Assembly: GCA_021157815.1 (NCBI GenBank)
Contig: JAGGVT010000009.1
Coordinates: 1 to 13,668 of the forward strand
Direction of reading: 5' to 3'
From: a bacterium
GTDB taxonomy: Bacteria; JAJVIF01; JAGGVT01
DNA: 13,668 nucleotides
This document shows positions 848 through 13,668 of this stretch, piece after piece. The notes under the pieces were generated by a model, which did not search any database, was not told the origin of the DNA, and saw nothing but the letters and a program-made list of their open reading frames with translations. A program made the translations under genes and the position numbers. The first letter of the stretch is position 1. Each line of letters opens with the position of its first letter.

Positions 848-3800
848 CTATGGATCATAATGAGCGTTGATAAATGCAGTTGGATCAATCTGTCCTTGTG
901 GACCCTGAGAAACTGGGGAAGGTACATATCCTGGCCCTGCTGTGGTGCTATCGCCAATTCTAATTTCAAAATGAAGATGACAATAGTACATACCATGAGC
1001 GTCACCAATTGTGCCGATAGATTCACCTGCGCTGATAAGATCATTTAAATTGACATCAATCGTATCAAGATGTGCATACATTGAAGTAATTGTTCCTGTC
1101 CCATTCACATCATCATGCCTAATAAAGATAATCTTTCCCCAACCTCCATAATGATCATAGGCTGATGTAACAACACCATCCGCTACTGCATAAACAGTAT
1201 CTCCACAATCTGTATTACCTCCTCCATTACCGTTCCAATCATCTCCTAAATGATATCCGTATCCAGAATAATAAGCCATCCATCCTTGTGCATTATAATA
1301 TCCAGAGGCATCAGGATATCCAACCGGGAAGCCAAAACCATTTCCGCCGCCACCACAACTGCATTGCCATTCTGGTGGTGTATGGCTTGGGTTATAACAA
1401 ATGCAACCGTCTTGGAATTCCTGTCGAACTGTACCTCCGCCAATATCTTCTTCCCCACTACATGCTGGACCAAAAGATGTGCCTGCCATTCCTCCATTAT
1501 CTAACCAAAAAGTGCGTATTGCACCACGAATTGGAAAAGCGCCACAACTACTTGAAGTTATATAGCCACCTTCAAATATCTGGTATGCTCTGCTAGAAGA
1601 AAGATTTACTTGATTATTTAATGGATAACCCATATACCAACCTCCTGAATCATAATCCAGTTTCCAAGCTTGATATATTGGTCCATACATTACCCAAGTC
1701 TTGCCTTCCTGACTTGATCCGTAAGGGCTGTCTGTAATGTAATTAATACTGCCGGTAAAATAATCTGGATTGTCATTACATTCATAAGGACCGAATGCTG
1801 CGTAATTAGATGTAGATCCTGCACCATACGGAGGTGGTTCCTCAGGATGCGAACGAGGTCCAACTTTGATACCACATGCGAATTCATCCAATTCGGTTTT
1901 GTACTCCTCCCATTTATCTAATATATCCTGCCAGCCTGTGAGTTTAACGAGGCACCAAGGTTCGTCACTTGCATACCCCTCATCTGAGTTTGATTTAGGA
2001 CCTTCACCACATGAATTAACTGCTGAGACTTGATAATTGTAATGAGTTCCTGGATTTGCAGAATAATCGGAGTAGGGAGAACTGGTGTCAGTATCTAAAT
2101 GTCCACCATTGCGATAGATTATGTAATTATCTGCACCTGGAATTGAATCCCAGCTAACCAAAACATAGTCATCATATGTGCCGTCTGATGCAGAAACACC
2201 GGTAACTTTTGCAGGTAGTGGGCAATTTCGCCAACCAACATCTGGGTCTGATTTAGGACCCTCACCACAATCGTTAACAGCTGAAACCTGGTAATCATAG
2301 TGAGTTCCCGGGTTTGCTGAATAATCGCGATAAGGAGAACTTGTGTCAGTATTTAAATACCCACCATTACGATAGATTTTGTAATTATCTGCACCTGAAA
2401 CAGAATTCCAGCTAATCAGAACATAGTCATCATAGGTGCCATTAGAAGCTGAGACTCCGGTAACTTTTGCAGGTAGTGGGCAATTTCGCCAACCAACATC
2501 TGGATCTGATTTAGGTCCTTCATCACAATCGTTGACAGCTGATACTTGGTAATTATAGTGAGTTCCCGGGGTTGCAGTTGTATCGTTGTATGGTGAACTG
2601 GGCTGGTTATCCTTAATCCGTGAACCATCTCTGTAAATACGGTAATAGTCAGCTCCGGAAACTGAATTCCAACTAATCCTTACATAGTTATCGTATGTGC
2701 CATCAGAAGCAGCAACTCCAGTTGGTGCAGATGGTGTGTGACCACGATAACCATCATCCGAAGATGACATTGGACCTTCACCACATTCGTTTATTGCCTT
2801 AACAGAATATGAATAAATCTGGCATATTTCACTTGAAGAATCGTTATAAGGTGAACTTGTGTCAGTATCCAAAAACTGTCCATTTCGATAAATTTTGTAT
2901 GAATCAGCTCCAGAAACAGAATTCCAGCTAATCCGAACATAATCATCATATGTGCCGTCTGAGGCAGAAACAGTTGGGGCTTCTTCAGGTGCAACTTTTG
3001 GGTAGCCTGTATCAGGACCACCTCTGGGTCCTTCACCACAATCATTTACAGCAGTGACTTCGTATGACAATGGACCACTTGACGGATCGATATGCTCATA
3101 TGGTGAATTTGGATGCTCGTCTTTTATTAGATTATTATTTAAGTAGATTTTATAATAATCCGCGTCAACAACAGAAGTCCAAGTAACAATAACCTTGCCA
3201 CATTCTGTACCATCGGTCGCACTAACATTTTCAGGTGCATCAGGCAAAGTACACGATTGAGTAAACTCACATAAAGCAGGAGGTTCGCTTGTTAAGGCAG
3301 GATCTCCATCATCTGTAACTCGAACCTCAAACGTATGAGAACCCTCAGTAAGTCCAGTCCATTCATAGTTTAAGGCACCATTATCAAGTTCCAGCCATTC
3401 AGGTGATTCATCCTTGTTTATCTCAACTATTAGATCTTCTACTGGTGTATTGTCATCGCTCATTGTCCATTCAAATGTATAAAAATTTTCTGTTAATGGT
3501 TCAGGTGGACAATTTGTGATTTCAACCTCAGGTGGAGGATTGGTCAATCTTTCAAAAGGGCATGAAGCAGGAGGATCGCTTGTTAGTGCAGGATCGCCAT
3601 CATCTGTAACTCGAACATTGAATGTATGAGAGCCAATACTGATGGGGTCCCAAAGATAGCTTGTTGCGCCTGGACTTTCTGGATGCTCTATCCATGGGTC
3701 ATCATCCAATTTTATCTCAACTATTAGATCTTCTACTGGAGTATTATCATCTGCCATTGTCCATTCAAATTCATACGATTCACCTGTCACAGTTTGACAG

Positions 3801-4804
3801 TTAGTTAATTCAACAGTTGGTTTTTGGTTTTCATCCGTGACAGTTATCTTCACTCTGTCTATCATTTCAAGAGCACCGGAATTTTCTGATGTGGCAAATA
3901 TCATTGCTCCATATTCACCAGCTGGCGCACCGGTAGTGTTTTCCAGATTAAGTTTCCATGTGTCGTCCACACGGTCAGTAAATAAAACGATGGGTGTACC
4001 TGTAATATCAGGACATTGAAGTTTGACCTCGTTTACGTCATTCTGCCAATCATGCACATCAACTTGAATCCAAGCTGTTGATTCTAGGATACTTGGGAGT
4101 GGCTCCTGTTGGAAATTTTTGATTTCATATGGTTCCTCACAATTACCTGGATAGGATACATCGATTTTAATCGTTATATCATAATTATCCTCAGGGCAGT
4201 AAACCAAAACATTTTCAGTAGACTCCGTCCCAGCATGAAAAGATCGGTTAGGTAAATGTTTGTTGTACGCTTTAAAGGGATTTGACGAAAGCCCTATTCC
4301 CAAATCATCCCATAATTCAGTCCAGTTATCAGGATTTCTCATACTATGACCAATCTCATCTGTTATGATGATCAGACGAACATCGTAAACATTTTTATGA
4401 TATTGGAGTGGGTTTGTTATGGTTACATCAACATCTGCAACATGAGTTGCGCGATCATAACTATTGATAGTAACAAAAACAGGGGTGGCATACGGTGTTC
4501 CATCCCAATGCTGATCTGCATTTCGTACAGGATTAACCGTTGCGTTGAGCGAGTCAACATCGAGTGTGACTTGCCAGGCACCTAGGATTTGCCTGTTAGA
4601 ATTGTTTTCTTCAACAATGAGTTCTAAATCATTCGGAGCTGGAATCTCATTCCCGTTCCCCGATGCCACTAGAAGATTTTGGGATTCTCCTAGTGACCCT
4701 CCACTTGGGTCTGATGGTACAACCGGACTCCCTTTTCCTGCACTGCAACCTAACAGCATTACAGCAATAAACATCAAGATCATAAAACTAATGTGTGCTT
4801 TCAT
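848..4804 (-). CDS. Multidomain M23-family metallopeptidase lipoprotein with FN3 and LGFP repeats
   Basis: This 1318-residue secreted lipoprotein is probably a cell-wall endopeptidase. A signal peptide ends in lipobox LLGC (Cys20). Next come a beta-rich module (about 75-325), two related PKD/cadherin-like domains (about 330-420 and 425-515, both with DDNTPVEDLIVEI), five FN3-like repeats (about 522-946), LGFP-type repeats (about 1041-1140, with IYQAW, FEGGYI, RGAIR and RQEFQ) and a C-terminal M23 domain (about 1160-1315). The M23 zinc and catalytic residues look intact: H1185 and D1189 in HLGDD, H1245 in YAHLD, H1276 and H1278 in HLHFE. Known M23 enzymes cleave peptidoglycan cross-bridges or stem peptides. 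LGFP repeats are known from wall-associated proteins. The start has a GGAGGT Shine-Dalgarno at 4810-4815, six bases upstream. It is the second gene of a leftward operon, 23 bases after the zinc-ribbon gene, and is closed by the 784-806 terminator. The actual substrate is unknown. Confidence 0.9.
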   Translation of the reverse strand: MKAHISFMILMFIAVMLLGCSAGKGSPVVPSDPSGGSLGESQNLLVASGNGNEIPAPNDLELIVEENNSNRQILGAWQVTLDVDSLNATVNPVRNADQHWDGTPYATPVFVTINSYDRATHVADVDVTITNPLQYHKNVYDVRLIIITDEIGHSMRNPDNWTELWDDLGIGLSSNPFKAYNKHLPNRSFHAGTESTENVLVYCPEDNYDITIKIDVSYPGNCEEPYEIKNFQQEPLPSILESTAWIQVDVHDWQNDVNEVKLQCPDITGTPIVLFTDRVDDTWKLNLENTTGAPAGEYGAMIFATSENSGALEMIDRVKITVTDENQKPTVELTNCQTVTGESYEFEWTMADDNTPVEDLIVEIKLDDDPWIEHPESPGATSYLWDPISIGSHTFNVRVTDDGDPALTSDPPASCPFERLTNPPPEVEITNCPPEPLTENFYTFEWTMSDDNTPVEDLIVEINKDESPEWLELDNGALNYEWTGLTEGSHTFEVRVTDDGDPALTSEPPALCEFTQSCTLPDAPENVSATDGTECGKVIVTWTSVVDADYYKIYLNNNLIKDEHPNSPYEHIDPSSGPLSYEVTAVNDCGEGPRGGPDTGYPKVAPEEAPTVSASDGTYDDYVRISWNSVSGADSYKIYRNGQFLDTDTSSPYNDSSSEICQIYSYSVKAINECGEGPMSSSDDGYRGHTPSAPTGVAASDGTYDNYVRISWNSVSGADYYRIYRDGSRIKDNQPSSPYNDTTATPGTHYNYQVSAVNDCDEGPKSDPDVGWRNCPLPAKVTGVSASNGTYDDYVLISWNSVSGADNYKIYRNGGYLNTDTSSPYRDYSANPGTHYDYQVSAVNDCGEGPKSDPDVGWRNCPLPAKVTGVSASDGTYDDYVLVSWDSIPGADNYIIYRNGGHLDTDTSSPYSDYSANPGTHYNYQVSAVNSCGEGPKSNSDEGYASDEPWCLVKLTGWQDILDKWEEYKTELDEFACGIKVGPRSHPEEPPPYGAGSTSNYAAFGPYECNDNPDYFTGSINYITDSPYGSSQEGKTWVMYGPIYQAWKLDYDSGGWYMGYPLNNQVNLSSSRAYQIFEGGYITSSSCGAFPIRGAIRTFWLDNGGMAGTSFGPACSGEEDIGGGTVRQEFQDGCICYNPSHTPPEWQCSCGGGGNGFGFPVGYPDASGYYNAQGWMAYYSGYGYHLGDDWNGNGGGNTDCGDTVYAVADGVVTSAYDHYGGWGKIIFIRHDDVNGTGTITSMYAHLDTIDVNLNDLISAGESIGTIGDAHGMYYCHLHFEIRIGDSTTAGPGYVPSPVSQGPQGQIDPTAFINAHYDP
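1967..3241 (-). repeat. Array of five FN3-like repeats inside the M23 lipoprotein
   Basis: Five coding repeats of about 82-86 residues each carry the pattern SA(S/T)(D/N)GT, W(N/T/D)S(V/I), GADxYKIYRNG, SSPY and VSAVNxCGEGP. The last two copies in protein order (residues 778-863 and 864-949) are nearly identical. At DNA level they show a 258-base period: a tract starting at 2201 recurs at 2459 over more than 50 bases with only one or two changes. This points to recent duplication. A conserved Cys follows the last strand of each repeat and another sits in the NCPLP linkers, so disulfides are possible in the periplasm. Confidence 0.8.
3280..3800 (-). repeat. Tandem pair of PKD/cadherin-like domain repeats inside the M23 lipoprotein
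   Basis: Two copies of a roughly 95-residue domain share EFEWTM or TFEWTM, then (A/S)DDNTPVEDLIVEI, then VRVTDDGDPALTS. The matching DNA tracts around 3283-3325 and 3575-3617, and again around 3420-3460 and 3715-3755, are near-identical direct repeats about 290-295 bases apart. They are coding repeats generated by internal duplication, not a mobile element. Confidence 0.7.
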
Positions 4805-4827: not shown

Positions 4828-5901
4828 TTAATGAAAAGAATTTTGTACTTCGTTTCGAATTTCCCCATCATCGTCAGGATTTATACGGTTGTGATTAATT
4901 TGAACATTATTCTCTAATTTTGTATCTTCAATCTGATTTGCCAGTAAGAAACCGCATGTATGACAGAATTTTGCTCTATCAACAAGATCAGCATTGCATA
5001 CTGGACACTGGTTTCCCCTTTCAGAGTCAACCTGTATGGCACCCACAATTCTCCCGCAACTCTTGCACTGACTGCCGTATGGATTGGGTTTAACGAAAGA
5101 AAAGTGATCTGAACCACAGAATGGGCAACAGCGAATATTCCTACCTACAAACTTTACCGTACTTTTCTTTCCTCCCGTCCCAGGAGAACTTATTTGGTTA
5201 AAACTACCTGTTTCAAGAATATTTGTGGCAAATCTGCTTGTGTTATCAAGAATTTCCGAGTTAACTTGTATTGAATCATAATCTGAATCATCAATACCGG
5301 CTATTAATCCACGTTTTTGCGCATAATTACCGAGAGCTCTACAGATAAGCGCGGTAATTAATGATGTAATTACCAGCGAAAACAGACAGGGAAGCCAAAG
5401 TAAATGGATGCTAAAATCACTTGCAAAATATTCATTCACATCGCCTTTAAAATCCTTCCACAAATAAAACATGATTACAATCGAGTAAACCCAATAAGGC
5501 CCCAGTATAGAGATTACGTTACTGCTTCTTCTGGTTATCAAAATTATACCCAGAAGACATAGGGCAAGGAAAAAAACGCCTGCTGTATAATCCGAATAGA
5601 AAGTTACAAATCCAGAACCCGATATCCCCAAGACTGTAGAATCTTTGCCTGCGATTCGGAATTTTAATGTATAAGGTAACAGATGAGTTCCCAGGTATTC
5701 CATAATCGAGGAACCCTCAGAAGATTCGTCCATATATGGATTAAAACCACCACCGGAAAATAACTCATATTCGAGCCCTCCCAATGAGACCATAGGCGGT
5801 GTGAATATAACTATCCCAATAGATATGATGGCTATCATACCAATCGCCCAAAACCACATGGCTGGATTGTTGAAAAATAGAGAGATTGGATTTTGATTCA
5901 T
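4828..5901 (-). CDS. Integral membrane protein with C-terminal double zinc ribbon
   Basis: The protein is 357 residues from the ATG at 5901-5899, chosen because AGAGGT (5911-5916) precedes it by nine bases. A longer frame to 5949 adds 16 residues without a better ribosome site. The N-terminal half is membranous: a segment at about 15-36, a roughly 75-residue stretch with an apparent extracytoplasmic look, then hydrophobic segments at about 107-123, 135-147 and 165-188. The C-terminal part has two CxxC pairs forming one zinc ribbon (C259/C262 and C279/C282) and a second set (C299/C302 and C313/C316), which is a double zinc ribbon. The tail is polar. I cannot assign a family function. Double zinc ribbons usually mediate protein or nucleic-acid contacts. 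It is the first gene of the operon with the M23 lipoprotein, divergent from the sigma-factor operon, so a role in sensing, or in assembly of that lipoprotein, is plausible but unproven. Confidence 0.8.
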   Translation of the reverse strand: MNQNPISLFFNNPAMWFWAIGMIAIISIGIVIFTPPMVSLGGLEYELFSGGGFNPYMDESSEGSSIMEYLGTHLLPYTLKFRIAGKDSTVLGISGSGFVTFYSDYTAGVFFLALCLLGIILITRRSSNVISILGPYWVYSIVIMFYLWKDFKGDVNEYFASDFSIHLLWLPCLFSLVITSLITALICRALGNYAQKRGLIAGIDDSDYDSIQVNSEILDNTSRFATNILETGSFNQISSPGTGGKKSTVKFVGRNIRCCPFCGSDHFSFVKPNPYGSQCKSCGRIVGAIQVDSERGNQCPVCNADLVDRAKFCHTCGFLLANQIEDTKLENNVQINHNRINPDDDGEIRNEVQNSFH

Positions 5902-6015
5902 GATACATTCACCTCTGAAAAAAGTATGTTCAATATTCGTAATCAACACTAACCAGTGGTTTTACATGATAATAATTTTCAAGTTTTTCCCAAAAATTAT
6001 TTAGTTTTTTTTAAT

Positions 6016-6088: not shown

Positions 6089-6622
6089 TTGGAATCGACA
6101 AGGCACGACATATTTATTCGTGAGTGGAAAAGCGTCAAGGGCGATGTCGCTGCTTTTCTTAGCATGAAAGGATGTTCACCTCATGAAATCGAAGATCTCA
6201 TGCAAGAAATAGCCATTATCGCGTTTGAAAATCTGCATACTTTAGAGAAAGACTTTGGTGACTGGGTTAAGGGTATTACCCGGAATGCATACAAGGATTA
6301 TGTAAAGCGAACTGTCAGGCAAAGAAACAGGGAAAGCGAGTTCGGTGTCAAAATGTTTGAAGATGACAGGCATTCAAACCTGGAAAACCAAATCATAAGT
6401 AGAGAATATGTTAGAGCAATTCTTGGTGACCTAAAACCATTGGACCGTGAATGTATGGAATACCATTTCGTCAATGGATTAACTTTGGAAAAAACTGCTG
6501 AAAATCTGAAAATTTCCACCTCCGGAGTCCACTATCATATTGAATCAGCAATAAAGCAGATTCGAGAGAAGTTATTGAAAAGTCAAACAAGCTCATCTGG
6601 AAAGGTGAATCAAGATGTCTAG
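6089..6622 (+). CDS. ECF-type RNA polymerase sigma factor
   Basis: This 177-residue alternative sigma factor has only regions 2 and 4, as expected for the ECF group. Region 2 spans about 13-78, with the core-binding motif DLMQEIAIIAFENL (about 36-49) and W59 followed by the ITRNAYKDYVKR helix. Region 4 spans about 108-163, with LxPLDRECMEYHFVNGLTLEKTAENLKISTSGVHYHI forming the -35-binding helix-turn-helix. The start is TTG at 6089, with no clear Shine-Dalgarno. The frame extends to 6035 without an ATG or GTG, and the first in-frame ATG (residue 26) would delete part of region 2. A 14-codon out-of-frame ATG frame (6079-6123) overlaps the start. The next gene overlaps the 3' end by 8 bases. The gene following an ECF factor is often its anti-sigma factor, but here that neighbour lacks the usual features. 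Confidence 0.9.
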   Translation: MESTRHDIFIREWKSVKGDVAAFLSMKGCSPHEIEDLMQEIAIIAFENLHTLEKDFGDWVKGITRNAYKDYVKRTVRQRNRESEFGVKMFEDDRHSNLENQIISREYVRAILGDLKPLDRECMEYHFVNGLTLEKTAENLKISTSGVHYHIESAIKQIREKLLKSQTSSSGKVNQDV

Positions 6623-7502
6623 CGTTGATTTTATGAAAGATTTTCTTGCCTTAAACATTGATGAACTTGATTCAGATCAAATCAGGCTGGAAATTGAAGC
6701 GCTTCAAACTCTTATATCAAACCCGACAACTTTCCACAATCGGATTGTATTTCTTCAAGAACTGGCTTTTTCTATGGAAGAATCTCATCAGAATTCATGT
6801 GTTCCACTGGAGGATCCTCTTACTCGCGAGCAGCATCTAAAATGTGTAGAAAAGGGAATTATTCAATCGTATGATGATAATGATGTCTCTGCACCTGCTC
6901 TTTTCGTTTTTGCTCACAGCGAAGAAGGTCTTGGAAATTTCACGGATGCTTTGTTCGATACTCCCAAGGGAAAACGAAACGAGTGTTGGAACACTCTTTT
7001 TGATTTACCATTTGATGTTCCAGAGATCGACATGTCAAAGGTATTTGAATTGGAAACAACAAACAATTACATTCATAAAATCGCGTCCGATTGGAATGCA
7101 CTGATATTCAAACTATTTCCCCCACAGAAAAAAGTAGCTCTAGGATTTAGAAATGCAACGAGTACGAAACCCTCGGTCGATCTCGATTCACAAATTCCCA
7201 AGCGTAAGGAAATTCTTAATCTTCTGACAAAACTGTCTTTGATTATGGACCAGATTGAGCAGGAAGAAATCAGGAGAATGATGCTCATCTTTCCATTGGA
7301 TAAAATCAAAGGGATTTTCCAAGAAGCTGAATCACTAGGGTCGATTATCTCAAATATTTCAGATCTTTTAAGAAAGGTTTATTCTATTGATGATCTAATC
7401 GTCTTAAAAGCCTACTTTTCTGATTCTGATAACTATTTAAACAAATATGAAAATGAATTCAGCCTTATCTATTTAATTTTAAAGAGTGCTGGAGATTTCT
7501 AA
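6615..7502 (+). CDS. Orphan cytoplasmic protein, candidate sigma partner
   Basis: I do not recognise this 295-residue family. The sequence is mainly helical and acidic at the N-terminus (about 1-60). A central region with more aromatic residues (about 90-140) follows, then a helical C-terminus (about 195-292). It has no signal peptide, no transmembrane segment and no HxxxCxxC zinc anti-sigma motif; its cysteines (62, 77, 124) are scattered. The start is sound: AGGTGA at 6603-6608 lies six bases before the ATG. The ATG overlaps the sigma-factor stop by 8 bases, and its own stop overlaps the next ATG by one base, so translation of the three genes is probably coupled. Tight coupling to an ECF sigma gene suggests a regulator, anti-sigma factor or protease substrate. 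This is inferred from position only. Confidence 0.75.
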   Translation: MSSVDFMKDFLALNIDELDSDQIRLEIEALQTLISNPTTFHNRIVFLQELAFSMEESHQNSCVPLEDPLTREQHLKCVEKGIIQSYDDNDVSAPALFVFAHSEEGLGNFTDALFDTPKGKRNECWNTLFDLPFDVPEIDMSKVFELETTNNYIHKIASDWNALIFKLFPPQKKVALGFRNATSTKPSVDLDSQIPKRKEILNLLTKLSLIMDQIEQEEIRRMMLIFPLDKIKGIFQEAESLGSIISNISDLLRKVYSIDDLIVLKAYFSDSDNYLNKYENEFSLIYLILKSAGDF

Positions 7503-9589
7503 TGCGAAATCAGAATATTATTAAGGTCATTCTTCTTATAATCTGTTTTTCCTTTTCGGTCGGATGCTCAGGTGGGAAATCGCCTCTTGAACCGGTGATA
7601 AATCCTGAATTCAACAGTTTTAAAGATATACCTTTAGTTGAATTATCCGAATCCAATAATACAGCCGATGCTCCTGGGTTAATGGGCATTTATGAATTTA
7701 GCCTGGACACAAACAGCATGATTGCCGAATTGACATCAGCAAGGATGTCATCCATCGGTGAAAGCTATATTGTAAACGGGATCAGTTACTTCACAATAGC
7801 GCCATGTCCGGACTGTTTGAAGGTCAATTCGTTATCAATGACAGGTGAAGGATTCATCCAGATTACTTTCGGAATTCGTCACCCCTTCAAACCAGGAGAG
7901 CCACTAAAACCACCTACTGCTGTAAACCGGCTCGATCTCGATATTTTCGATGTCGCAATGGTAACTCATCCAACCAATAAAACACCACAAACCTACAATC
8001 TTACCGAAATATCTGCATATTCAAATGTGATTACAGCAAATGCAGGATACACGACCGAACTGGCGAATGTAATTGGTGATCAGGCAGCATTGCCTTTCGT
8101 ATTAGTAATAGATGACAGCATAACGGGAGTGAGCACATTCAATAAATTCGCGATGGGTGATGAATCGGAGTTTGATGTCACATTCACAGTAACACAGAAA
8201 ACATATTTTACTCTCTATTTGACTATGGGATACGGTGCCAGTGCGAAAAAAGCTCAAAGATTGAATCCGAGCTATTTTAATCCAGAATTCAATCGTAAAA
8301 GTGCCTGGAAAGTGGATGTAACTCCACCCAATGGCAGCAATCCACCTGTGATTGGAAACACATGGAATAATTCAGATACAACCACTCTTTATCCTGTTAC
8401 CGTTAAAGTATATGACTGGCAGGTAGGAGCAAACGTTAATCCGGCTCTTACAAATCCTACCGATATCTACGCTGCATCGGGAGTAGCTAAAGTCAGCCTT
8501 GAGATACCGGGAATGCATGACGCATTAATTGAATCAACCAGTCCCACAACCGGTACTGGTATTCCCGCAAACCCGCTTATCTATACGCTATCATTAGCTA
8601 ATGAAAATGCTCTACCGGAAGGTCAATATACAGGGATTGTTAAGGTTACTGATGAAAGGGTTCCGGGACAATCAGTTATCGGTGGCGAAACTGACACTCT
8701 GGTAACAACTCCAGACGGAGTAACATTGGAATGGAAAAACATTCCTGAGTTTGCTACATATCAGGTTTTCACCGCAACAGTAACAAGCACTGCAACCGGA
8801 AATCTTATCTGGGCAAAACGCGCCGGAGGGTCAGGTGATGATTATGGCTATGGAATCACCACACTTTCTGACAATTCGACAGTCATTACTGGATGGTTTG
8901 CTGGCACAAGCACATTTGGTCAGGACGAACCAAACCAGACAACCCTCATTTCCGCTGGAGATCCTGAAATCTTCATCGCGCGATTTTATACTGATGGTAC
9001 ACTTGCATGGGCTAAAAGCGCAGGTGGGGTAGCTACTGATGGCGGCTTAGCAATCACTACGCTTTCGGACAATTCGTCAGTTGTGGCTGGACATTTTTCA
9101 GGCTCAGCTACATTTGGTCTGGGTGAGCTAAACGAGACAATCATGATTTCCGATGGCAATTCTGATATCTTTGTTGCGCGATTCGATCTGAATGGAATGC
9201 TTTTGTGGGCAAAAAGAGCTGGAGGGACAGGTGCCGATTATGGTAGAAAAGTTACAATGCTTTCGGACGATTCGACAATTTTGACCGGGTGGTTTGCTGG
9301 TACAATCACATTCGGACTTGGCGAACCGAACGAGACAATCCTGATTTCCGCTGGTGGCGATGATATATTTATCGCACGGTATAATCCGAATGGAACACTC
9401 ACGTGGGCTAAACGCGCTGGAGGGACAAGTGATAATTCTGCTTATGCAATCACCACACTTTCGGACAATTCGACAGTCCTGACCGGATGGTTTGAAGGCA
9501 CAATCATTTTTGGTGAGGGTGAATCCAACGAGACCATTCTAAATTCTGCAGGACTCAGGGATATTTTTATTGCCAGGTTTGAGCCATAG
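7502..9589 (+). CDS. Lipoprotein with C-terminal SBBP-type beta-propeller repeats
   Basis: This is a 695-residue surface or periplasmic lipoprotein. The signal peptide ends in lipobox SVGC (Cys22) and is followed by GGKSP. Residues about 58-270 form a beta-rich module starting GIYEFSLDTNS, which matches GAWQVTLDVDS of the M23 lipoprotein. A CPDC motif lies at about 102-105. Residues about 286-385 form a second beta domain (VKVYDWQ ... PEGQYTGIVKVTD) that also has a counterpart in the M23 protein. Residues 435-695 are four repeats of WAKRAGG-type sequence resembling the SBBP beta-propeller family. The ATG overlaps the preceding stop by one base and has GGAG at 7491-7494, seven bases upstream. 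Its position in a sigma/CHAT operon suggests an envelope sensor or an exported target. No enzymatic motif is visible. Confidence 0.85.
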   Translation: MRNQNIIKVILLIICFSFSVGCSGGKSPLEPVINPEFNSFKDIPLVELSESNNTADAPGLMGIYEFSLDTNSMIAELTSARMSSIGESYIVNGISYFTIAPCPDCLKVNSLSMTGEGFIQITFGIRHPFKPGEPLKPPTAVNRLDLDIFDVAMVTHPTNKTPQTYNLTEISAYSNVITANAGYTTELANVIGDQAALPFVLVIDDSITGVSTFNKFAMGDESEFDVTFTVTQKTYFTLYLTMGYGASAKKAQRLNPSYFNPEFNRKSAWKVDVTPPNGSNPPVIGNTWNNSDTTTLYPVTVKVYDWQVGANVNPALTNPTDIYAASGVAKVSLEIPGMHDALIESTSPTTGTGIPANPLIYTLSLANENALPEGQYTGIVKVTDERVPGQSVIGGETDTLVTTPDGVTLEWKNIPEFATYQVFTATVTSTATGNLIWAKRAGGSGDDYGYGITTLSDNSTVITGWFAGTSTFGQDEPNQTTLISAGDPEIFIARFYTDGTLAWAKSAGGVATDGGLAITTLSDNSSVVAGHFSGSATFGLGELNETIMISDGNSDIFVARFDLNGMLLWAKRAGGTGADYGRKVTMLSDDSTILTGWFAGTITFGLGEPNETILISAGGDDIFIARYNPNGTLTWAKRAGGTSDNSAYAITTLSDNSTVLTGWFEGTIIFGEGESNETILNSAGLRDIFIARFEP
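8804..9589 (+). repeat. Four 198-base coding repeats (66 residues each)
   Basis: Repeats start at residues 435, 501, 567 and 633 with no length variation. Each reads LxWAKxAGG, TxLSDxS, VxxGxFxGxxxFG, then a DIFIARF-like motif. The last copy ends exactly at the stop codon. Near-identical DNA phrases recur, such as ctttcggacaattcgaca. They resemble SBBP propeller blades. Confidence 0.85.
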
Positions 9590-9687
9590 GCTTCACATAA
9601 ATTCTGCAACAATCGTGGTGGTCAGCTATCTCAATTCGTTTAGATAAATAATTGCATCCTAATTGTGAAAAGGTCACGAGACAAAAT

Positions 9688-12600
9688 ATGGATAAACAAA
9701 TCTTTGAAATAGAAACAAAAATAAAAGCTCTAATAGATGCGGGGAAATTCGATGAAACTTATTCTCTTTCTGATGAACTTCTAGGTCTAAGTCTAAAGTA
9801 CTATGGGGAAAAAAGTCTGAAGTATGCAAATCTATTACCTTTGATTATAACTGTACTTAATTTTAAAGGCGACTTTATTAAATCTGAGAAATTGGCAATG
9901 CAGTGTTTAGAAATAACCGAAATTCATATGGGTAAAAACAGTGAACTTTATATCGATCGTCTAAATACTCTCATATCAGTTTATCATAAAATTGGGAAAT
10001 ATTTCGAAGCAATAGAATTATCAAAAAAAGCGATAAGTTCTTCCCAAAAATTACTTGGAGAAGAGAATCAATACTATGCTCGCAGCTTAATGGGATTGGC
10101 AGGTGTGTATTATTTAATTGGCTTATTTGATAAGGCAGAACCATTAATGGTAAAGGCTTATAACATTTACCAGCAAGTTTTGGGTGATGAGAATCTTACA
10201 TGCGCTGGAGCAGTGAATAACCTGGCTATTCTCTACCACGCAATGGGCAATTATTCAGTAGCAAAGAAAATGCATTATAAAGGAATGGAGTTGATTAATA
10301 AACTAGTGGGTGAAAAACACCCATTTTATGCACAAAGGTTGAATAACCTGGCAAATTTATGTTTGGCAACTGGTGAATATTCTACTGCAAAAGCATTATA
10401 CGAGAAAGCAGTGTCGATTACAAAATCAATGGAGGGAAAAACATTCAATTATGCTTTTTATGGATTTAATTTAGCAGCCTATTACATTAGTCATGATGAT
10501 GCAAATAAAGCAAAGCCGCTTTTGTTTGAGACACTAGAAATTCTCAAAAATTCATGGGGAGAGCAGCATCCATCCTATGCAATGCAGTTAATTGACGTTG
10601 GGAATATGTATTTAAATCTAGGCAAATATGATGAGGCAGGAAGTATATATAAGCAATCAATAGCTATTTGGGAAACCTCTATAAGTTGTAATAATTACTA
10701 TTATGCATTTGGATTAAACAAGCTAGCAAATATATTTTATATAATGGGTGAATTTGAGAAATCATCTGAATTAGTAAGCAAAGTTATACATATCTACAGC
10801 GAAGTTTTAGGAAAATCTCATCCAGAATATTCCGAAGTGCTTGTTTTACAGTCATTAATTTCGGCTTTTACAAACCATGAAATTATCGCTTTAGAATCCT
10901 TAAATGATGCATCTTTAATTCAAGATGAGATGATTATGCAAATTCTATCGACAGGATCCGAATCTCAAAAATTGGATTTTATAAAAAAAATCCAACCAAG
11001 TATCGACATTCATCTTTCCCTTGTCATTAAACATTTCACTGATTCCCTCAAAGTATTTCGAGAAACACTTGATCTAGTCCTCCGTCGAAAGGCAATCACT
11101 GCTGAAGCGCTTGCAGCGCAACGTGATGCTGTTTACAGTGGGAAATATCCGGAGCTGGTAGAAAAACTACATGATTTGACAATTCTGCGAACTCAAATTG
11201 CGATGAAGGAATTAAAAGGTCCTACTTCTGAAGAGAAAGAATATCATGACAAACTTATCTCCGAATGGAAGGAGAAAAGAGATAATCTTGAATCGGAACT
11301 GGCGCGTCAAATTCCCGAGATGAACTTAGAGGAAAGGCTTAGACAGGCTGACCGAAAAGCGGTCGCAAAAGTTTTACCAAAAGATTCAGTTCTTGTGGAG
11401 TTTGTGAAATTCAACGAGTACGATTTCAAAGCAATCCCTGCAAAAGGCGAAAAACATTGGAAACCAGCACGATATCTGGCTTTTGTTCTGCCATCCGGTG
11501 ATCCTGATAATATACGCATGATTGATCTGGGTGAGGCTGAAGCGATTGATAAACTTATTGATAACTTCCGTGCTTCTGTTCTAAGCGATTTTGATGTGCC
11601 GGAACGATCTGCAACAACTGTCAAGAGTAATATTAAAAAACCTGACAATGATACTGGCAAAACTTTACGGAAAGCTGTTTTCGATAAAATCGAAGATGGC
11701 ATAAAAGGTTACAGCAAAATCTTTATCGCTCCTGATGGCAACTTAAGCCGTCTACCGTTCGAAGTCCTTCCAACAAGCGATGGCAGGTATCTTATCGATG
11801 ATTATAATATCAGCTATCTTTCTGTTGGGCGCGATATGTTACGATTCGAAAGACAATCCAGTGGCTCACCTGTTGCAGCATTAGTTGTTGCTGACCCGAA
11901 CTTCGACATGGGCAGAGATATGTCATTAGAACCGGGAGAACCAGAGACAGAATTCAGTTTTGCAAAAGGATGGCGAAAATCACGAGACTTCGACCGCACA
12001 TCTCTAAAATTCGACCGCCTTCCAGGAACTCGACCGGAAAGCGATAAAGTATCGGATCTTCTGAAAACAAAATCCTGGCTGGATAATGAAGTGCTTGAGA
12101 GTAAACTGAAAGCAGTTCATTCACCGTATATAATGCATCTCGCCACGCATGGATTTTTCCTGGAAGATCAGAGAATCAATCTGGAGAAGGAATCAGGCCA
12201 ACGCTACGAAAATCCTCTTTTACGATCTGGACTTGCATTGGCTGGGGCAAATACATTCATCAAAGGTGGAACTCTCCCTGACGAAGCCGAGGATGGCATT
12301 CTAACCGCTGAGGATGTTTCAGGACTCGACCTTACCGAAACAGAAATGGTTGTTCTATCAGCCTGCGATACCGGACTTGGTGAAATTCGCACCGGTGAAG
12401 GTGTATTCGGACTCCGTCGCTCATTCATGCTTGCTGGCGCTAAAACACTGGTGATGAGCCTATGGAAAATCCCTGACCTTGCAACCCCAATCCTCATGGA
12501 ACGATTCTATGAAAACCTGATAAATCGAAAAATGGGCAGAGCTGAATCCTTAAGAGATGCTCAAATTCATACGCGTGATATCACTCTTGGTGAAGTTAAA

Positions 12601-12774
12601 AAGAAATGGCTTACCGATGAAATGATTGGCAAACTATCCGCTGGTAATGAAGCGTTTAAGCGTGATTTGATAGAGTTGACAGAACAACCAGATGACCACA
12701 CTCCATTCAAAGCCCCAATCTACTGGGGAGCCTTTATTTGCCAAGGTGATCCAAGGCCGATTAAAATGAAATAA
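9688..12774 (+). CDS. TPR-CHAT domain protein (caspase-like protease)
   Basis: The protein is 1028 residues from ATG 9688. A TTG at 9652 would add 12 residues, but the ATG opens directly into the first helix, so it is preferred. Neither start has a strong ribosome site. Residues 1-395 are about nine 42-residue TPRs of the kinesin-light-chain type (G(E/D)xHPxYAxxLNNLAxLY). Residues 400-620 are a helical linker with the conserved ETLDLVLRRKA and IPEMNLEERLRQADRKAV motifs of the large TPR-CHAT family. The CHAT domain spans about 655-1018, with HLATHGFF (H821) and LSACDTGLG (C893). Both members of the catalytic His/Cys pair are present. CHAT enzymes are caspase-like cysteine proteases; TPRs bind a partner or substrate. 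It lies 98 bases after the lipoprotein gene with no obvious promoter, so it is probably the last gene of the sigma operon. GC content jumps near 11040, between TPR and linker. Confidence 0.92.
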   Translation: MDKQIFEIETKIKALIDAGKFDETYSLSDELLGLSLKYYGEKSLKYANLLPLIITVLNFKGDFIKSEKLAMQCLEITEIHMGKNSELYIDRLNTLISVYHKIGKYFEAIELSKKAISSSQKLLGEENQYYARSLMGLAGVYYLIGLFDKAEPLMVKAYNIYQQVLGDENLTCAGAVNNLAILYHAMGNYSVAKKMHYKGMELINKLVGEKHPFYAQRLNNLANLCLATGEYSTAKALYEKAVSITKSMEGKTFNYAFYGFNLAAYYISHDDANKAKPLLFETLEILKNSWGEQHPSYAMQLIDVGNMYLNLGKYDEAGSIYKQSIAIWETSISCNNYYYAFGLNKLANIFYIMGEFEKSSELVSKVIHIYSEVLGKSHPEYSEVLVLQSLISAFTNHEIIALESLNDASLIQDEMIMQILSTGSESQKLDFIKKIQPSIDIHLSLVIKHFTDSLKVFRETLDLVLRRKAITAEALAAQRDAVYSGKYPELVEKLHDLTILRTQIAMKELKGPTSEEKEYHDKLISEWKEKRDNLESELARQIPEMNLEERLRQADRKAVAKVLPKDSVLVEFVKFNEYDFKAIPAKGEKHWKPARYLAFVLPSGDPDNIRMIDLGEAEAIDKLIDNFRASVLSDFDVPERSATTVKSNIKKPDNDTGKTLRKAVFDKIEDGIKGYSKIFIAPDGNLSRLPFEVLPTSDGRYLIDDYNISYLSVGRDMLRFERQSSGSPVAALVVADPNFDMGRDMSLEPGEPETEFSFAKGWRKSRDFDRTSLKFDRLPGTRPESDKVSDLLKTKSWLDNEVLESKLKAVHSPYIMHLATHGFFLEDQRINLEKESGQRYENPLLRSGLALAGANTFIKGGTLPDEAEDGILTAEDVSGLDLTETEMVVLSACDTGLGEIRTGEGVFGLRRSFMLAGAKTLVMSLWKIPDLATPILMERFYENLINRKMGRAESLRDAQIHTRDITLGEVKKKWLTDEMIGKLSAGNEAFKRDLIELTEQPDDHTPFKAPIYWGAFICQGDPRPIKMK

Positions 12775-13176: not shown

Positions 13177-13206
13177 TTGACAACACCGGACTATAACGGT
13201 TATAAT
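13177..13206 (+). promoter_or_regulatory. Perfect-consensus promoter for the ardC-like gene
   Basis: TTGACA (13177-13182) and TATAAT (13201-13206) both match consensus, with an 18-base spacer. Transcription would begin near 13213, about 50 bases before the ATG. Such a strong promoter suits a gene needed quickly after element entry, as with antirestriction genes. Confidence 0.8.
13192..13204. promoter_or_regulatory. Palindrome TATAAC-G-GTTATA overlapping the -10 box
   Basis: Perfect 6-base arms flank a single G, and the right arm covers the first four bases of the -10 hexamer. This is a good candidate operator for keeping the consensus promoter repressed. The repressor is not in the window, as far as I can see. 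Confidence 0.5.
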
Positions 13207-13265: not shown

Positions 13266-13668
13266 ATGAAACCTAACACAAAGAATGCTCTATATGAGCA
13301 AGTCACCAGTCAGATTATATCTGAGCTGGAGCAAGGCAAAATCCCATGGGTTAAGTCCTGGGTAATGGGAACTCCACCATCAAACCTGATATCCGGGAAA
13401 CCGTATCAGGGTATCAATCATGTTTTATTAAGCATGACAGATTTTGAAAGTCCCTATTTCCTGACATTCAAACAGGCTAAACAGCTTGGCGGGTATGTCA
13501 GAAAAGGTGAAAAGGGTTACCGGGTTATTTACTGGAAAATCAACAAGCTGGTAAAAACTGATCCGGTAACACTTGAGGAAACCGAAAGGAAAATACCACT
13601 ACTGAGAGCATACTGGGTATTTAACGTTTCGCAATGTGAAAATATCCCAGCTGACAAGATCCCGGTTA
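13266..13668 (+). CDS. ardC: ArdC-like antirestriction protein, N-terminal part (cut by window edge)
   Basis: The first 134 codons are present and the gene continues past the edge. It matches the ArdC N-terminal single-stranded-DNA-binding domain (DUF1738): YEQVTSQIISELEQGKIPWVKSW, then SGKPYQGINHVLL, then FLTFKQAKQLGGYVRKGEKG, then YWVFNVSQCENIP. In the full-length family a zincin-type metallopeptidase domain normally follows, but it lies outside the window. ArdC proteins are carried by plasmids and integrative elements and protect incoming DNA from restriction. The start ATG has AGGGAG at 13252-13257, eight bases upstream, and the consensus promoter at 13177-13206. The gene suggests mobile-element DNA to the right. 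Confidence 0.88.
   Translation, partial: MKPNTKNALYEQVTSQIISELEQGKIPWVKSWVMGTPPSNLISGKPYQGINHVLLSMTDFESPYFLTFKQAKQLGGYVRKGEKGYRVIYWKINKLVKTDPVTLEETERKIPLLRAYWVFNVSQCENIPADKIPV

Follow-up and report, generated by a model that had tools for sequence, protein, structure and literature searches.

A sigma factor, a candidate anti-sigma factor and a TPR-CHAT protein in one gene run: a possible protease-controlled switch without CRISPR genes

The locus described here raises the question of whether a TPR-CHAT protease may control an ECF sigma factor outside the context of a CRISPR system. The stretch of DNA analysed (the window) is a complete contig of 13,668 bases (C203) in an assembly of 3.2 Mb, 221 contigs and 91% completeness. 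It carries on one strand the genes for an ECF-type sigma factor, an orphan protein, a beta-propeller lipoprotein and a TPR-CHAT protein (Table 1). All four had been named in a preliminary description of this DNA, and ORF calls and Pfam searches placed them at the positions given there. The same description regarded the operon as coupled, and this holds for the first three genes, where the sigma and orphan reading frames overlap by 8 nt (6615-6622) and those of the orphan and the lipoprotein by 1 nt, in a TAATG where the lipoprotein ATG lies on the orphan TAA. It does not hold for the CHAT gene, which follows downstream without overlap, with 98 nt between the lipoprotein stop and its ATG. The lipoprotein gene places the sigma gene 3 kb from the CHAT gene. 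No significant hairpin was found in the gap between lipoprotein and CHAT genes (z = 0.42), and the frequency of promoter-like sites was not above that of shuffled sequences.

Table 1. Features of the window and of TPR-CHAT loci from other genomes that carry a sigma gene
Feature or locus	Positions	Strand	Description
ECF-type sigma factor	6089-6622	+	TTG start, 177 aa (ORF call)
Orphan protein	6615-7502	+	ATG start, 295 aa (ORF call)
SBBP/DUF5122 beta-propeller lipoprotein	7502-9589	+	695 aa (ORF call)
TPR-CHAT protein	9688-12774	+	ATG start, 1028 aa (likelier start)
TPR-CHAT protein, alternative start	9652-12774	+	TTG start, 1040 aa (less likely than ATG 9688)
Lipoprotein	848-4804	-	1318 aa; fn3 domains, LGFP repeat, C-terminal M23 peptidase domain
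Membrane protein	4828-5949	-	373 aa; C-terminal double zinc ribbon; divergent from sigma gene
Perfect TTGACA-18-TATAAT	13177-13206		Upstream of ArdC gene
ArdC N-terminal domain gene	13266-13668		Runs off contig end; may mark a mobile region (Pfam)
L148, L175, L179, L186, L191			Acidobacteriota; middle gene of 300-368 aa, one family (L191 by eye)
L195, L201			Middle gene carries HxxxCxxC zinc finger
L074, L084, L085, L117, L199			Sigma, zinc-finger protein and CHAT, differently ordered
L083	5796-9910		zf-HC2 finger fused to TPR-CHAT N-terminus, 12 nt after ECF sigma
L080	5743-11375		ECF sigma, then Ser/Thr kinase gene (Pfam), then TPR-CHAT
L170	7373-13165		ECF sigma, 654-aa gene similar to the L080 kinase by eye, then TPR-CHAT

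The sigma protein matches Sigma70_r2 (residues 19-76, 3.5e-07) and Sigma70_r4 (residues 112-160, 1.4e-07) in Pfam as well as sigma70-ECF in NCBIfam (1e-14), and it is a short protein with regions 2 and 4 and without regions 1 and 3, i.e., an ECF (sigma-70 group IV) factor. No homologue of it was found at 1e-10 among 385 genomes. The setting of sigma genes in the class was compared in four genomes in total, including that of the window. Behind three other sigma genes of the window genome (contigs C90, C40, and C18) the next gene codes for a zinc-finger protein of the anti-sigma type, and a zinc-finger protein gene is also next behind three sigma genes from the rest of the class (G001 C195, G003 C87, and G003 C562); these proteins are about 180-210 aa long. 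In G002 the sigma gene is followed by a gene for a 160-aa protein in which HxxxCxxC is absent as called. The orphan gene of the window occupies this slot, directly downstream of the sigma gene and overlapping it, which is the gene position of class I anti-sigma factors.

It is mainly because it fills the anti-sigma slot of its lineage that the orphan is read as an anti-sigma factor. The role of anti-sigma factor or substrate had been proposed for it at the outset; gene position in the window genome and its class speaks for an anti-sigma factor, and the absence of the HxxxCxxC zinc motif from the sequence speaks against it. Among class I anti-sigma factors the motif is present in about 56% and missing in about 44% (PMC7406223). 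The orphan is an acidic protein (33.9 kDa, pI 4.6), soluble by hydropathy and devoid of a transmembrane helix. It has no family match in Pfam, NCBIfam, PADLOC, or PHROGs, and no credible relatives in searches of 97 and then 385 genomes, of genome contigs, viral contigs, plasmids, and phages; it is also absent from the three other class genomes compared. When its sequence was compared with solved structures (PDB), no relevant chain was found at E up to 5, Csx30 included. Weak matches in G029, G237, and G263 (E 8e-4 to 3e-3 per genome) were rejected as chance level for 385 genomes, and the reading frame matched in G029 resembles RecO by eye. A single-sequence AlphaFold model was all-helical with a pLDDT of 35, too poor for detail or for fold comparison. 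By gene position only, the orphan is a candidate anti-sigma factor, which would be of a soluble, zinc-free and divergent kind.

The TPR-CHAT protein matches CHAT (PF12770, 1e-66) and TPR_12 (9.8e-45) in Pfam, where TPR_10 was also matched. The dyad motifs HLATHGF and LSACDTG are intact, with His821 and Cys893 in ATG numbering; the preliminary description had likewise given intact His and Cys residues and the same cysteine. Both residues fall in columns without variation when 14 distant relatives are aligned. As judged from this domain and the His/Cys dyad, the protein is a CHAT (clan CD) peptidase, and proteolysis is predicted. As no strongly hydrophobic N-terminal stretch is seen in the hydropathy profile, it is predicted to be cytoplasmic. 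Against solved structures the best match of the CHAT profile was another CHAT protein (8rot, 3e-4), with Csx29 chains only at E about 0.5. In the CHAT tree the window protein lies in a clade of 12 members, of which only L117 is also sigma-linked. The CHAT of this locus, which lies on an Acidobacteria contig, is among the closest relatives of the window protein, and its gene is contiguous with sigma and zinc-finger protein genes.

The lipoprotein has a DUF5122 propeller match in Pfam (8.6e-07) and four C-terminal repeats of 66 aa (198-nt period). Its family has 141 matches in the window genome and 79-117 in each of the three class relatives, with members found both in tandem and singly. In nine other members that were examined, the start is separated by 163 nt or more from the next listed ORF, or no ORF is listed upstream; by comparison the window copy alone is joined to an operon. 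In a comparison that took in loci L102, L103, L104, and L112, the propeller (about residues 430-695) has matches of 55-67% identity in genomes that belong to a different family of the class, and the N-terminal part has its best matches inside the window genome, a difference that suggests either module exchange or a strong constraint on the propeller. The lipoprotein is probably operon cargo from a large lineage-expanded family. A role as sensor, which had been proposed, is unlikely because the lipoprotein is exported, while sigma factor, orphan and CHAT protein show no membrane segment by which a signal could be brought in; the great expansion of the family also speaks against it.

A broader view of the locus comes from TPR-CHAT genes in other genomes. 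Loci were collected by CHAT alone, from the 385 genomes, from a profile scan of genome contigs (alignment A1) and from two small phyla. ECF sigma genes in the flanks were identified with an HMM that started from the window sigma and was iterated over the very loci being counted; in GC-rich loci the gene calls are guesses based on the longest ORF. In 108 loci 11 of 27 sigma genes were located on the same strand and at most 1.5 kb upstream of CHAT, where 1.8 were expected (binomial p = 6e-7, uncorrected for kinship, with five of the cases forming one Acidobacteriota clade). The comparison was run without the orphan and shows ECF sigma and TPR-CHAT genes to be linked in other phyla, in line with the co-occurrence that the preliminary description looked for. 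The sigma-linked cases fall in several separate places of the CHAT tree, i.e., the Acidobacteriota, the neighbourhood of G137/G386 and G139/G299, G069/G175/G328, G274, L117, and the window.

In seven of the loci (L148, L175, L179, L186, L191, L195, and L201) a sigma gene, a single gene of 186-368 aa and a CHAT gene follow each other on one strand with nothing else between. The middle protein of the Acidobacteriota begins with a helical domain, continues with a hydrophobic helix and ends in an Ig-like domain. In its model the N-terminal domain of five helices is well predicted, and structure searches matched mainly the Ig-like C-terminus; an hhalign comparison of these proteins with the orphan was not significant. 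L083, as read from its sequence, is a natural fusion of an anti-sigma-type finger and the protease. A Ser/Thr kinase gene between ECF sigma and TPR-CHAT, as in L080 and by eye in L170, is a further arrangement that recurs. The neighbourhood of sigma and CHAT genes is recurrent, and an anti-sigma-type protein is most often included. The window agrees with the seven loci in gene order and strand; it differs from them in the lipoprotein gene between orphan and CHAT, which leaves it outside the strict form of the cassette, and the Acidobacteriota middle protein is membrane-anchored and accompanied by a CHAT that usually has a hydrophobic N-terminus. Many sigma-linked CHAT relatives have such an N-terminus and are probably exported, so that one shared mechanism is not assured.

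Among known systems, the type III-E Craspase is one of the closest in its parts. In that system Csx29 cleaves Csx30, an inhibitor of CASP-sigma (PMC10028731), and the window resembles it in that one locus combines a TPR-CHAT protease with a His/Cys dyad, an ECF-type sigma factor and an additional gene. On the other hand, no Csx30 chain among the solved structures matched the orphan by sequence, and Csx29 was matched by the CHAT profile only at E about 0.5. The window is not a type III-E locus because its genome, as assembled, has no RAMP protein (PF03787). Control genomes were positive in this search, and the absence is not absolute, the assembly being incomplete. Nor did the repeat analysis of the 13.7 kb contig report any CRISPR-type family, in agreement with the original remark that CRISPR genes are lacking. 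The locus may work like the protein arm of Craspase without being a member of that type. Similarly, CalpL-CalpT-CalpS is a protease and ECF sigma system linked to type III CRISPR (PMC11417357), and its anti-sigma is close in size to the candidate in the window (33 kDa as against 33.9 here). Calp, however, has a Lon-type protease with a SAVED domain that senses cyclic oligoadenylate, where the window has a TPR-CHAT and no RAMP protein was found. An ordinary ECF sigma factor with a class I anti-sigma shares the two-gene layout of sigma and regulator seen behind other sigma genes here, but the orphan has neither HxxxCxxC nor a family match and the gene run also includes a TPR-CHAT gene. In the open-licence literature we found no account of cassettes that join sigma, anti-sigma and TPR-CHAT genes outside CRISPR.

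Our main reading, to which we give a probability of roughly 0.4, is that the locus is a CRISPR-free cassette of sigma factor, anti-sigma factor and TPR-CHAT protease in which CHAT cuts the orphan to free the sigma factor. The orphan, co-translated with the sigma factor, would act as a soluble zinc-free anti-sigma that binds and silences it; the TPR-CHAT, itself cytoplasmic, would sense a signal through its TPR superhelix and, once activated, cleave the orphan; and the freed sigma factor would switch on a regulon that includes its own operon and the lipoprotein. We consider binding of sigma factor and orphan somewhat more probable than its opposite, whereas cleavage by CHAT is put forward tentatively. 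The nature of the signal and the autoregulation are conjectural parts of the model, which draws on the precedents of Csx29/Csx30/CASP-sigma and CalpL/CalpT/CalpS. The layout, the intact catalytic residues, the lack of membrane segments and the recurrence of a sigma gene, one further gene and CHAT are observations in support of the cassette. Against it count the orphan, which has no homologue, no HxxxCxxC and a poorly predicted model, the single other linked member of the CHAT clade, and the lipoprotein gene that separates sigma from CHAT.

ECF operons commonly include their target genes, and it is conceivable that sigma factor and orphan form an ordinary pair with the lipoprotein and the TPR-CHAT as outputs, CHAT acting on other substrates, e.g., as a stress or conflict effector, and not regulating the sigma factor. 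This is a real if doubtful possibility, and a CHAT transcribed as a target of the sigma factor is almost as likely as one that cleaves the orphan. The lipoprotein is best seen as cargo. Of the 135 CHAT reading frames, 17 lie within 1.5 kb of a sigma gene when both strands and sides are counted, and in the clade of the window CHAT only one other member is sigma-linked. For the majority of the TPR-CHAT genes sampled no sigma gene is close by, so that they must function without it. In addition, the CHAT of the Acidobacteriota seems to be exported, whereas the anti-sigma domain would sit inside the cell. Yet sigma, anti-sigma and CHAT genes have been joined repeatedly in separate lineages, with the fusion in L083 as one instance, and this suggests contact rather than mere co-expression.

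It is improbable that the genes are chance neighbours, i.e., a sigma/orphan pair, one lipoprotein of an expanded family and a TPR-CHAT with no relation to them, possibly in a mobile region with ArdC. The orphan is unique, the contig carries the ArdC N-terminal domain, and the CHAT and TPR genes examined in the class genomes are not beside sigma genes. Accidental adjacency keeps some weight because the three related genomes show no comparable arrangement; it is opposed by the overlaps at 6615-6622 and 7502, the same-strand order and the enrichment of sigma genes at CHAT elsewhere. Finally, although neither the sequence searches nor the poor structure model gave any sign of an anti-sigma domain, it is most improbable that the orphan is a CHAT partner or substrate with another role, or a sigma co-regulator, since its position is the anti-sigma slot both in its own lineage and in sigma-CHAT cassettes elsewhere.

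The cassette reading can be widened to the idea that TPR-CHATs are broadly CRISPR-independent, signal-gated switches of dedicated ECF sigma factors that cut anti-sigmas, with Craspase as an RNA-guided offshoot of this older design and the window as a version with a soluble anti-sigma of an unrecognised kind; at this breadth we regard it as rather unlikely. The trios of switch, inhibitor and protease in other bacterial phyla suggest a CRISPR-free switch under protease control. If TPR-CHATs do gate sigma factors outside CRISPR, the unusual sigma-inhibitor branch of Craspase would have a natural source, and a class of substrates open to testing would be at hand for a widespread group of caspase-like proteases in bacteria.
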